Assembly (NCBI RefSeq): GCF_026413145.1
Contig: NZ_JAOVYZ010000018.1
Location: forward strand, 1 to 35,358
Direction: 5' to 3'
Source: Limosilactobacillus kribbianus
GTDB lineage: Bacteria > Bacillota > Bacilli > Lactobacillales > Lactobacillaceae
DNA: 35,358 nucleotides
Positions 1-3,581 of this stretch are shown piece by piece (position 1 is the first letter of the stretch; each line of letters opens with the position of its first letter). The notes below the pieces were generated by a model. The model made no database searches. It saw only the letters and a program-made list of their open reading frames with translations, and was not told where the DNA came from. The translations under genes and the position numbers were made by a program.

Positions 1-986
1 CAGTTCAGGGACAGAAAAACGGTAATGACAGTGTTGTACTAGTAATGACTGATCGCCTTTCACGAGTTAATATCACGAGTAAAATTGCTGGTAAAACTGC
101 GCATGCAGTAAATCAGTTCTTTACCAATTTTGCAAGACAACACATTATAGATTATTTCGGCAAAGACAAGATGATCCAAAAATTAACAAATGATGATTAT
201 CAACAATTTATAAACTCGTTGAACGATTTGAGCCATTCTTCGGTGCGTCTTATTAATCAGTGTTGCACACAAGCTTTAGAGTATAGTGTACAGCAAGGAT
301 ATATAAATCGAAATCCAGCGGCAATGGTTCACGCTGGAGGACAGAAAGCTCGTAATGTAGAATATCTTAATTTAAAGCAAATTAAAGCTGTTTTGAAGTA
401 TTGCCGGAACTACCATGCAAGAAAACGAGAGCACAAACCTGTTATGGTCGGAACCGCTTGCTTGATTGAGGCCGCCATCTTGTCAGGCGCCAGGTTAGGA
501 GAATTGGCTGGATTGACTTGGGACAATGTAGATGATAAGAACAATGTGCTACATATTACCCGTCAGATTGATACACGCAGTCGTAAAGATCCAACGCCAA
601 AATTTCGCTCAACAAAGAACGACAACTCAGTCCGTGATGTTCCTGTACCAAAATATTTAATCGACGATATGAAAAAACTTCGTTGTGATGGTGATGTTCT
701 TGTGTTTTACACACAACGAAATAAGCCGGTCAGCACATCAAGCGCTAGTCGTTATACCCATCGTATGCTTAAAAAGTTAGGTATTAACAACAAGAATTTC
801 CACTTTCACTCGTTCAGGCATAGTCACGTTGCCTTGTTATTGTCGAAGGGCGTTGATATATACGCGATTTCAAGACGTCTAGGACATAATAACATTAGGA
901 CAACTCTACAGATTTATTCTTATCTGCTAACAGAAAAGCAAGATGAAGAAAACAAGAAGATTATCAATGTGTTAAACAATCTATAG
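1..986 (+). CDS. int: Tyrosine recombinase (phage/element integrase), 5' end outside window
   Basis: Site-specific integrase that would join an element's attP to a chromosomal attB. The first ATG in the window is at 45, but the frame is open back to base 3, and the visible 313 residues start in the middle of the core-binding domain, so the gene begins left of the window. Numbered from the ATG at 45: the SAM-like core-binding region is about 20-100 and the catalytic domain about 110-300. Catalytic residues are all visible: R150 (GARLGEL), H255 and R258 (HSFRHS), H281 (LGHNN) and the nucleophile Y291 (QIYSYL). The gene is markedly AT-rich compared with the following genes, which marks acquired DNA. 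It reads toward the truncated end of dprA, so it lies at the chromosome-proximal edge of its element. I am sure of the family; whether the element is a prophage or an ICE cannot be told here. Confidence 0.93.
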   Translation, partial: VQGQKNGNDSVVLVMTDRLSRVNITSKIAGKTAHAVNQFFTNFARQHIIDYFGKDKMIQKLTNDDYQQFINSLNDLSHSSVRLINQCCTQALEYSVQQGYINRNPAAMVHAGGQKARNVEYLNLKQIKAVLKYCRNYHARKREHKPVMVGTACLIEAAILSGARLGELAGLTWDNVDDKNNVLHITRQIDTRSRKDPTPKFRSTKNDNSVRDVPVPKYLIDDMKKLRCDGDVLVFYTQRNKPVSTSSASRYTHRMLKKLGINNKNFHFHSFRHSHVALLLSKGVDIYAISRRLGHNNIRTTLQIYSYLLTEKQDEENKKIINVLNNL

Positions 987-987
987 T

Positions 988-1046
988 TGTGTCTCTGTGT
1001 CTCATTTGTGTCTCAGATTTCTGCTTTTCTCTGCTTTTATCTGCAT
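988..1046. repeat. Short direct repeats downstream of int (candidate integrase arm sites)
   Basis: Immediately after the integrase stop there are three copies of TGTGTCTC at 988-995, 996-1003 and 1007-1014. They are followed by CTGC-led repeats at 1021, 1031 and 1041 with a 10-base period (CTGCTTTT twice, then CTGCAT). Short direct repeats beside the core site are typical of arm-type binding sites of tyrosine integrases; that reading is inferred from position and spacing. Confidence 0.45.
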
Positions 1047-1159
1047 CACCTAATATTTATTCACAAAGTGTATACTGATTTTAATTCTACAAATGTTAGC
1101 TAAATGCTGTTATATCAACGTTTTCTATTATCACAAAATGATTATAATTCACAAATTTA

Positions 1160-1897
1160 TTATGCAGTATACAGTGCAATATTAGCAGTAATCAGGCTGC
1201 CGCTGCGCCGCTTGGCCTCAACCACTAACAGCGTCTGGGAGAGACCCGCAATGATCCGGTTCCTCTCTGGAAAATGGAAGGCCAGCGGGGGCTCGCCCAG
1301 GCCGTATTCGGTCAGCACCAGGCCTTCTTTAACCACCCGGGACTGGAGTACGCGATTTTCGGCCGGGTAGCACCGGTCGAGCCCGCAGCCGATCACCCCG
1401 ACCGTCATGCCGCCACATTCGAGCGTCACCTGATGGCTGAGCCCGTCGATCCCCCTGGCCAGGCCACTCACCACAACTAAGCGGTACTTGACGATTTCAG
1501 GCAAGAAGCCACGGAGCACACTGGCTCCATAGGACGAGGCATCGCGGGCCCCCACGACGCCCAGCATCGGGAACTGCAATAGCTTGAGATTGCCCGCATA
1601 GAAGAGCACCAGCGGCGGGCAATAGGTTTCCTTGAGCTGGCTCGGGTAGGCATCATCAACCAGGGTAATGAAAGGCTGGGTTTGATTGGCGGCCACCGCC
1701 TGATTGAGCTCCGGGCTGGCCCAATTGTTCTCCAGGGCCGTCCGAGCGCGGATGCTGAGTGATACTTCGTTGACCAAGTGGTCCATTGGGGTAAAAGACT
1801 GGTGCTGTTCTGCAGCCTGCCAGAGATGGTATTTGCTGACCCGTCCCAGACCGCGGCACAGACTCAGTCGTAATAAAAATTCGCGTTTTGATAACAT
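1160..1897 (-). CDS. dprA: DprA, C-terminally truncated by element insertion
   Basis: DprA binds incoming single-stranded DNA during natural transformation and loads RecA on it. This frame is 245 residues; the family is usually about 285-295. Present are the N-terminal helical region (about 1-70) and most of the Rossmann-like domain: GVVGARDASSYG, SGLARGIDGLSHQ, GVIGCGLD, FPERNRIIAGLS and KRRSGSLITANIAL. The last strand and helix of that domain (the FAVPG and LIxxGA part) and any C-terminal domain are missing, replaced by three foreign codons and a stop. The start at 1897 has an AGGAGG SD. It is the last gene of the ypmR-ypmS-yozE-rbgA-rnhB-dprA run; in lactobacilli topA normally follows, and here the integrase element follows instead. 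The product is probably non-functional, or functional only after excision of the element. Confidence 0.88.
   Translation of the reverse strand: MLSKREFLLRLSLCRGLGRVSKYHLWQAAEQHQSFTPMDHLVNEVSLSIRARTALENNWASPELNQAVAANQTQPFITLVDDAYPSQLKETYCPPLVLFYAGNLKLLQFPMLGVVGARDASSYGASVLRGFLPEIVKYRLVVVSGLARGIDGLSHQVTLECGGMTVGVIGCGLDRCYPAENRVLQSRVVKEGLVLTEYGLGEPPLAFHFPERNRIIAGLSQTLLVVEAKRRSGSLITANIALYTA
1163..1200. other. Probable attachment-site junction inside dprA
   Basis: On the minus strand the dprA frame matches the DprA family up to the motif GSLITANIAL, whose last codon is at 1172-1174. It then reads only Y-T-A and a stop at 1160-1162, where family members continue for roughly 45-50 residues. The change from family-like GC-rich coding DNA to AT-rich sequence occurs here, 170-180 bases beyond the integrase stop. 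The att core should therefore lie in or next to this stretch. Its exact limits need the other junction, which is outside the window. Confidence 0.6.
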
Positions 1898-1948
1898 AAA
1901 AAAGCCTCCTACTTATTAAGTACGGGACTTTTGGCAAATGATACTTTA

Positions 1949-2716: not shown

Positions 2717-3581
2717 TGATCCCATCCTCATTCAGGTCGGCCGGAACCTCCATCGTGATCGGCCCAAGTTTGCCTTTCCGCAGGTCAAAGATCAGCCGTT
2801 CACTGGCCCGGTCATAATCATCGCGCATCCCCAGCTTCTGGGTGATCGTGAGCAGGAGGTCGGGATCAGTGACCGCCTCGTCCAGGTCGGCGTCCGTCAG
2901 CCGGTAGCGCTTCTTCAGCATCTCCGGCTGGTGGGCCCGCAAGTACTTGAGGGCAAAGAGGGCCACGTCATCCTTGGGGTAGAGGCTATCCTTGATCGCC
3001 CCGCTTAAAGCCAGCATTTGACCCTGCTTTTGGCTGGCAAACTTGTGCCAGAGGACCCCGGGCGTGTCGAGCAGTTCCAATTCTGCCGAGGAACGAAGCC
3101 ACTGCTGGCCGGTCGTTACCCCCGGCCGGTTGCCGGTGGCGGCGACGTTTTTCTTCACCAGGTGGTTCAAGAGGGTCGACTTACCAACGTTCGGCACCCC
3201 CACACACATCGCCCGGATCGGCCGCTTCTTCATTCCCTTGGCCGCCTCCTCAGCCAACTTGTCATGCAGAATTTCCTTACTCTTGGCGGTCACCAGCTTG
3301 GCCACGTTCTGCCGCCGGGAGTCCAGTGCCAGGACCGGTTGTCCCTTTTGCGCAAAATAATCTAACCACTCCTTGAGCCGGTCAGCATCGGCCAGGTCGG
3401 TCTTGGTCATGATCAAGAGGCATGGCTTGTCGCCAGCAGCAAGGGCCACCTCCGGATTTTGCGATGAGTAGGGCACCCGGGCGTCGACCAGTTCAAAGAC
3501 AATATCGACCAATGGCATCTGCTCACGGATCTGCCGCAGAGCCTTGGCCATGTGTCCGGGGAACCATTGAATTACTGCCAA
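2709..3581 (-). CDS. rbgA: Ribosome biogenesis GTPase RbgA (YlqF)
   Basis: Circularly permuted GTPase needed for late assembly of the 50S subunit (known for B. subtilis YlqF/RbgA). The motifs run in the permuted order: G4 TKTD at about 59-62, then G1 GVPNVGKST at about 128-136, a G2 threonine in PGVTTGQQW, then G3 DTPG at about 172-175. A basic C-terminal RNA-binding domain of ~100 residues follows. The open frame allows a GTG at 3590, but the SD AAAGGAG would then touch the start codon. The TTG at 3581 lies 8 bases after it and gives the family-like N-terminus AVIQWFPGHM, so I choose TTG. The gene sits 13 bases after yozE and overlaps rnhB. Confidence 0.95.
   Translation of the reverse strand: MAVIQWFPGHMAKALRQIREQMPLVDIVFELVDARVPYSSQNPEVALAAGDKPCLLIMTKTDLADADRLKEWLDYFAQKGQPVLALDSRRQNVAKLVTAKSKEILHDKLAEEAAKGMKKRPIRAMCVGVPNVGKSTLLNHLVKKNVAATGNRPGVTTGQQWLRSSAELELLDTPGVLWHKFASQKQGQMLALSGAIKDSLYPKDDVALFALKYLRAHQPEMLKKRYRLTDADLDEAVTDPDLLLTITQKLGMRDDYDRASERLIFDLRKGKLGPITMEVPADLNEDGINE

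Follow-up and report, generated by a model that had tools for sequence, protein, structure and literature searches.

An integrase-bearing element splits the transformation gene dprA of Limosilactobacillus kribbianus, and dprA is a recurrent integration target in Lactobacillaceae

Recombination of DNA that a cell takes up from outside requires dprA, whose product loads RecA onto the entering single strands. At one end of the window (the whole 35,358-nucleotide stretch of L. kribbianus DNA analyzed here, which is the entire contig C16 of a draft assembly of 105 contigs), the dprA frame stops early beside a tyrosine integrase gene. This raises the question of whether an integrated element has split the gene and, if so, what the split would mean for the host and for the element.

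The frame lies on the minus strand from 1897 to 1163, with the stop codon at 1160-1162, and encodes 245 amino acids recognized by the Pfam model DNA_processg_A (E 1.7e-63). It follows its family to GSLITANIAL and then reads YTA and a stop, in keeping with the original prediction of an end within four codons, so that the product consists of 242 native-like residues and three foreign ones. In the nearest relative (G025), DprA is intact and 285 residues long, and 242 of these align to the window frame at 95% identity. The C-terminal loss that had been predicted is thus real, although it amounts to 43 residues, close to the 45 to 50 first estimated. DNA similarity to G025 stops at position 1172, and the AT-rich DNA expected at the junction is also present, the leftmost kilobase having a GC content of 0.386 against 0.451-0.638 in the 1-kb windows that start at position 1001 or beyond. 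A tRNA search of the window found none. Judging from the open reading frame lists, the rest of the window resembles ordinary chromosome, with genes that we take to be rnhB, ylqF, thyA, der, and dnaE.

Features of the dprA junction in the window and of the dprA site in G394
Feature	Position	Strand	Remarks
IS30-type transposase fragment	1..123	plus	Contig start; reads in frame into the integrase; differs from L021 at one of 123 bases
Tyrosine integrase	124..986	plus	Catalytic domain complete, N-terminal part absent; reads toward the dprA junction; Phage_integrase E 7.8e-27, phrog_1 E 2.1e-60, alignment
20-bp tandem motif	996..1015		TGAGACACAAATGAGACACA on the minus strand; exact 20-bp match at the other element end, similar motif at the G007 element end; putative arm-type integrase sites
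Element-derived end of dprA frame	1160..1184	minus	Synonymous codons for NIAL, followed by YTA and a stop
8-bp core common to both junctions	1185..1192		ATTACTGC on the minus strand; codons 236-238 (ITA); exact repeat in the window arm and the C84 arm
dprA, host-derived 5' part	1193..1897	minus	Codons 1-235; 95% identity to G025 DprA over 242 residues, including element-encoded ones; Pfam
dprA-site pieces in G394 (L033-L035)	C1:77671-77883 and 122394-123209		

The gene directly behind the 285-residue dprA of G025 is presumably topA, and this region served as the query for the missing half. It matched a single place in the L. kribbianus genome, C84:3432-4952, at 92% identity. On contig C84, about 3.4 kb of element sequence leads into the missing dprA 3' end and then topA. 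The distal part of the gene is thus found past the element's far end and next to topA, where the original prediction had placed it. The window-arm and C84-arm junctions read ...GGCAGCCTG ATTACTGC TAATATTGCACTG... and ...GGTAGTATT ATTACTGC CAACATCGCTTTG..., respectively, with the core occurring once in each arm examined. Joined at this core, the arms give an open frame of 285 residues that is 95.8% identical to the G025 protein over 284 residues, with no gaps. A DprA search of the same genome matched only these two pieces. The halves sit on separate contigs of a draft assembly, which is the source of both junctions and did not yield the central part of the element that would link C16 to C84.

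A short DprA is not a trait of element-free relatives, since 28 of 32 same-genus genomes have frames of at least 289 amino acids measured from stop to stop. In the other four, the gene is split by an element (G006 and G013), reduced to a 3' remnant beside a related element (G007), or broken in frame (G029). The two junctions and the full-length DprA of the relatives rule out chance truncation and a natively short protein.

The element ends bear the marks of site-specific integration. The tandem motif near both junctions is a putative integrase arm site, and the joined ends read GSIITANIAL in the dprA frame. The resulting att sequence differs from G025 dprA at 10 bases, 9 of them at third codon positions (binomial P 0.00036), and from the strain's own inferred site at 9, of which 7 are at third positions (P 0.008). 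We read this as pointing to an att site derived from, or molded on, dprA; with its differences falling mostly at third codon positions, it looks like the dprA of a host richer in A and T and may tolerate synonymous drift between host species.

A related element occupies the same place in G007, a second species of the genus. Contig C203 of that genome carries an element end with 75% DNA identity to C84 over 1803-2963 and 3202-3433, which runs up to a remnant of the dprA 3' end at the corresponding position; a 2-base gap at the core leaves the exact crossover point uncertain, and a search of G007 for the 5' half of dprA found none. Among 50 genus genomes, own genome included and with at most six candidates scored in each, two were seen to hold this element end. 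Taken together, the dprA 3' end and topA at the far end, the shared core, the 20-bp motif, and the G007 element at the same place support the insertion, and the rejoined gene bears out the original proposal that an integrated element splits dprA.

Two neighboring open reading frames have been conserved between the right ends of these two GSLITA-site elements, at L023 2075-2979 on C84 (164 and 128 amino acids) and at L038 2325-3227 on C203 (169 and 125 amino acids). The L023 pair had no Pfam match at E 0.1, and the 164-residue product had no match in plasmid or phage records. In the G007 element end, at L038 628-1116, lie frames that resemble a group II intron reverse transcriptase. Also encoded at the right end on C84 is an MmeI-type restriction-modification enzyme, present as its C-terminal part (MmeI_TRD, E 7.3e-62) and cut near the contig start; the three right-end proteins scanned comprised this enzyme and two unknowns, with no phage structural gene on the few kilobases seen, and the element could be a phage, a conjugative element, or an island. 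A further MmeI piece is on C89 (L061), a contig that could not be placed relative to C16 or C84. C89 joins this fragment to what we take to be an argH-like gene, broken-looking argG-like frames, and a bile-salt-hydrolase-like gene, together with an IS30-type transposase start. The contig ends of this draft look mosaic.

Full-length DprA was searched in 397 family genomes, own genome included, of which 393 matched. Genomes picked by eye (at least two matches or an unusually weak one) were re-examined in two sets, one of 26, namely 24 from the survey plus G013 and G029, and one of 12, own genome included. Element insertions in dprA are present in at least 6 of the 397 genomes (L. kribbianus, G006, G007, G116, G384, and G394), and one more was found in G013, which belongs to the same-genus set outside that count. 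The gene is thus a recurrent integration target in Lactobacillaceae. In G006, G013, G116, G384, and G394, the break lies at a second site, the FPERN motif at about residue 210. Exact repeats flank the break in G006 (7 bp) and in G013, G116, and G384 (8 bp), and the rejoined dprA frames of these four genomes are open. The halves are on one contig in G006 (about 47.8 kb apart) and G116 (35.7 kb) and on separate contigs in G013 and G384. Each of these elements has, by eye, tandem motifs flanking its two ends: G006 and G013 an AAAGGGG-type, G116 a TTACCACA-type, G384 a GGCACACA-type, and G394 a looser ACACA-type. Their appearance suggests arm sites for the integrases.

A choice of open reading frames of at least 230 amino acids was scanned (seven of G006, four of G116, five of G394, and one of G384), and terminase, head or portal, and tail genes were found in the elements of G006, G116, and G394, which are prophages. 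The integrase frames of G006, G013, G116, and G384 are 380-386 amino acids long. Identity between integrases is 72% for G006 and G013 and 48% for G384 and G394; the other pairs, with the window integrase included, share 22-32% over aligned parts of at least 75 residues, apart from one 40-residue stretch at 45%. An integrase tree placed the six dprA-linked integrases on one side of a branch with 40/83 support; as 11 of its 17 rows were chosen for nearness to the window integrase, it cannot settle the number of origins. The two sites and the strong divergence of the integrases nonetheless suggest that targeting of dprA arose more than once. Neither the integrase nor the DprA of G006 had a relative in viral contigs. 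The DprA 3' end was found in 24 phage records, several of which look like bacterial DNA.

One of these prophages spares its target. In G394, dprA is full length (282 amino acids). Its last 242 bp, with the stop codon, are repeated exactly at a distance of about 44.5 kb, next to a 707-amino-acid frame that we take to be topA. With the 3' end supplied by the prophage, the host keeps a full-length DprA, and breaking dprA is accordingly not needed by every element that uses the gene. The G394 integrase frame is only 249 amino acids long from its first ATG, and this gene may itself be cut.

Separately from the insertions, dprA is broken by frameshifts or stops, with no element seen between the pieces, in G029, G245, G341, G355, G383, and G419; the gene is thus also lost by plain mutation in Lactobacillaceae. 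Many of the examined genomes of genera g21 and g39 have a second, distant DprA-like frame (about 25-34% identity to the query).

What the L. kribbianus insertion would do to its host can be gauged from the part of DprA that is gone. In an alignment it corresponds to residues 239-280 or so of pneumococcal DprA (3uqz), where the dimer contacts of that protein probably lie. Excerpts of one study state that dimerization of DprA is needed for DNA binding and RecA loading (PMC12386762). The truncated protein, with 242 of 285 residues, is likely nonfunctional, and the 43 missing residues suggest that the host would lose transformation. Neither half of the gene shows decay in a codon comparison with G025: in the displaced 3' part 18 of 47 codons differ, 17 synonymously and 1 nonsynonymously, and in the 5' part 51 of 235 differ, 39 synonymously. 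Because the two halves still make an undamaged gene, the insertion looks recent relative to the split from G025; the data would fit equally a gene that is still used at times.

The explanation we favor, and hold with good confidence, is that a tyrosine-recombinase element integrated by crossover within the 8-bp ATTACTGC in the conserved dprA codons for GSLITANIAL, cutting DprA after residue 242 of 285 and most likely abolishing RecA loading and hence transformation. The element would benefit in that an untransformable host could not delete it by homologous replacement. The insertion would be recent and may now be locked, the integrase being cut at an IS30 sequence (see below).

A different reading keeps the insertion and drops the benefit: conserved dprA codons would simply be an attachment site available in many hosts, with loss of DprA a side effect. 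We consider this a real, if tentative, possibility, since both sites lie in conserved motifs (FPERN and GSLITA), the G394 prophage spares DprA, and the frames broken with no element in sight indicate that dprA can be lost; yet competence genes are repeatedly targeted in other groups, as excerpts of two studies attest (PMC4774983 and PMC12637031). According to the first, integrase-borne elements are known in comYC, comFA, comM, comK, and radC, and for those in comYC, comFA, comM, and comK the proposed benefit is the blocking of their own removal by transformation (PMC4774983). Those elements are, like ours, integrase-borne and inserted in competence genes, but dprA is not among the disrupted genes in the excerpted text; here the target is dprA, at two sites, with one preserving prophage beside disruptive ones. 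In the second study, as excerpted, pneumococcal prophages occupy ssbB, comYC, csRNA3 (attBOXC; a competence-suppressing small RNA), yjbK, scr, and whiA (PMC12637031). As is likely here, transformation is inhibited there via the insertion site, and the whiA and scr prophages duplicate the gene end and spare its function; in contrast to our case, a prophage alters dprA expression there, and dprA is not an integration site in the portions available (PMC12637031). PMC6985150 describes one E. coli strain whose DprA gene is interrupted by a copy of IS1203. Among the open-literature matches listed, a coverage that leaves subscription journals outside, we recognized no report of an integrase-borne element in dprA. 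The conflict is of a known kind; what is new is dprA as the target, which also has a preserving variant.

Could the element still leave? The original prediction described an intact tyrosine integrase reading toward the junction. The integrase and its orientation are as described, and the known catalytic residues of the family are present, but the gene is not intact, as alignment with relatives indicates that roughly 75-100 N-terminal residues are absent. In their place stands sequence of an IS30-type transposase, as found on a contig of Limosilactobacillus alvi (L021), with which the agreement then ends; the join lies at the very contig start, inside the transposase gene and not at an end of the insertion sequence. 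Two accounts fit: the integrase was cut by a rearranged copy of IS30, or the contig end is in error. A search of the L. kribbianus genome for the missing part with the arm-binding model PF14657 matched only an integrase on C62, and no second copy of window positions 1-400 was found in that genome. In a control, four of seven related integrases, including both near relatives of the window integrase (L043 and L045), passed the PF14657 cutoff and those of G006, G013, and G394 failed it; had it been assembled, the missing part would probably, if not certainly, have turned up. Across the 50 genus genomes, the window itself apart, near-full-length matches have at most 39% identity, with short remnants such as one at 58% over 64 residues in G025. 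No relative was found in viral contigs, and identity stayed below 60% in all 1855 matching GenBank phage records (searched with the fused 327-amino-acid frame) and all 55 plasmid records. With an integrase that lacks its N-terminal part and has IS30 sequence in its place, self-excision of the window copy is doubtful; as assembled, this copy would be unable to excise with its own integrase, unless the join is a contig-end error.

These data bear on the idea of a switch. The comK prophage of Listeria monocytogenes reportedly practices active lysogeny; its insertion is also mentioned in excerpts of PMC4774983. By analogy, the dprA element would excise precisely, restore the gene, and reinsert, turning recombination of incoming DNA on and off. 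Both cases involve an insertion inside a competence gene that precise excision could in principle restore, but in ours the integrase of the window copy is incomplete and the restored gene is an in silico join. The joined halves are undamaged in L. kribbianus (G000), G006, G013, G116, and G384, no decay is evident in the displaced 3' part of the G000 gene, and the last four genomes have integrase frames of 380-386 amino acids; undamaged halves are, however, equally expected of a recent insertion, and the missing integrase part was found nowhere else in the L. kribbianus genome with PF14657. We therefore judge the switch decidedly unlikely as a general account and doubtful for the window copy, while for G006, G013, G116, and G384 it is conceivable in principle. 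A broader picture, in which dprA is a recurrent Lactobacillaceae target at two codon motifs for elements with diverged integrases and dprA-mimicking att sites, some destroying and one preserving the gene, and in which those with full-length integrases act as reversible switches, seems to us unlikely as a whole.

That the contig start is chimeric and dprA truly intact is scarcely credible: other contig ends of this draft look mosaic, with IS30 sequence fused into the integrase and an MmeI piece beside argH-like sequence on C89, but the two contigs share the 8-bp core and can be joined there into an open frame, the integrase faces the junction, the 20-bp motif is at both ends, and the separately assembled G007 has the same arrangement. 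A chimeric contig is thus ruled out for the dprA junction, though not for the start of the integrase.

Preferring, then, an insertion that disables DprA to the benefit of the element, we see three implications. The notion that transformation purges parasitic DNA, and that the parasites resist, gains support from elements that disrupt competence genes. As a gene entered at two sites, destroyed in some genomes and preserved in one, dprA offers a natural comparison by which to ask whether breaking dprA aids the persistence of an element. Finally, a strain may be untransformable owing to an element that it carries and not to its species.
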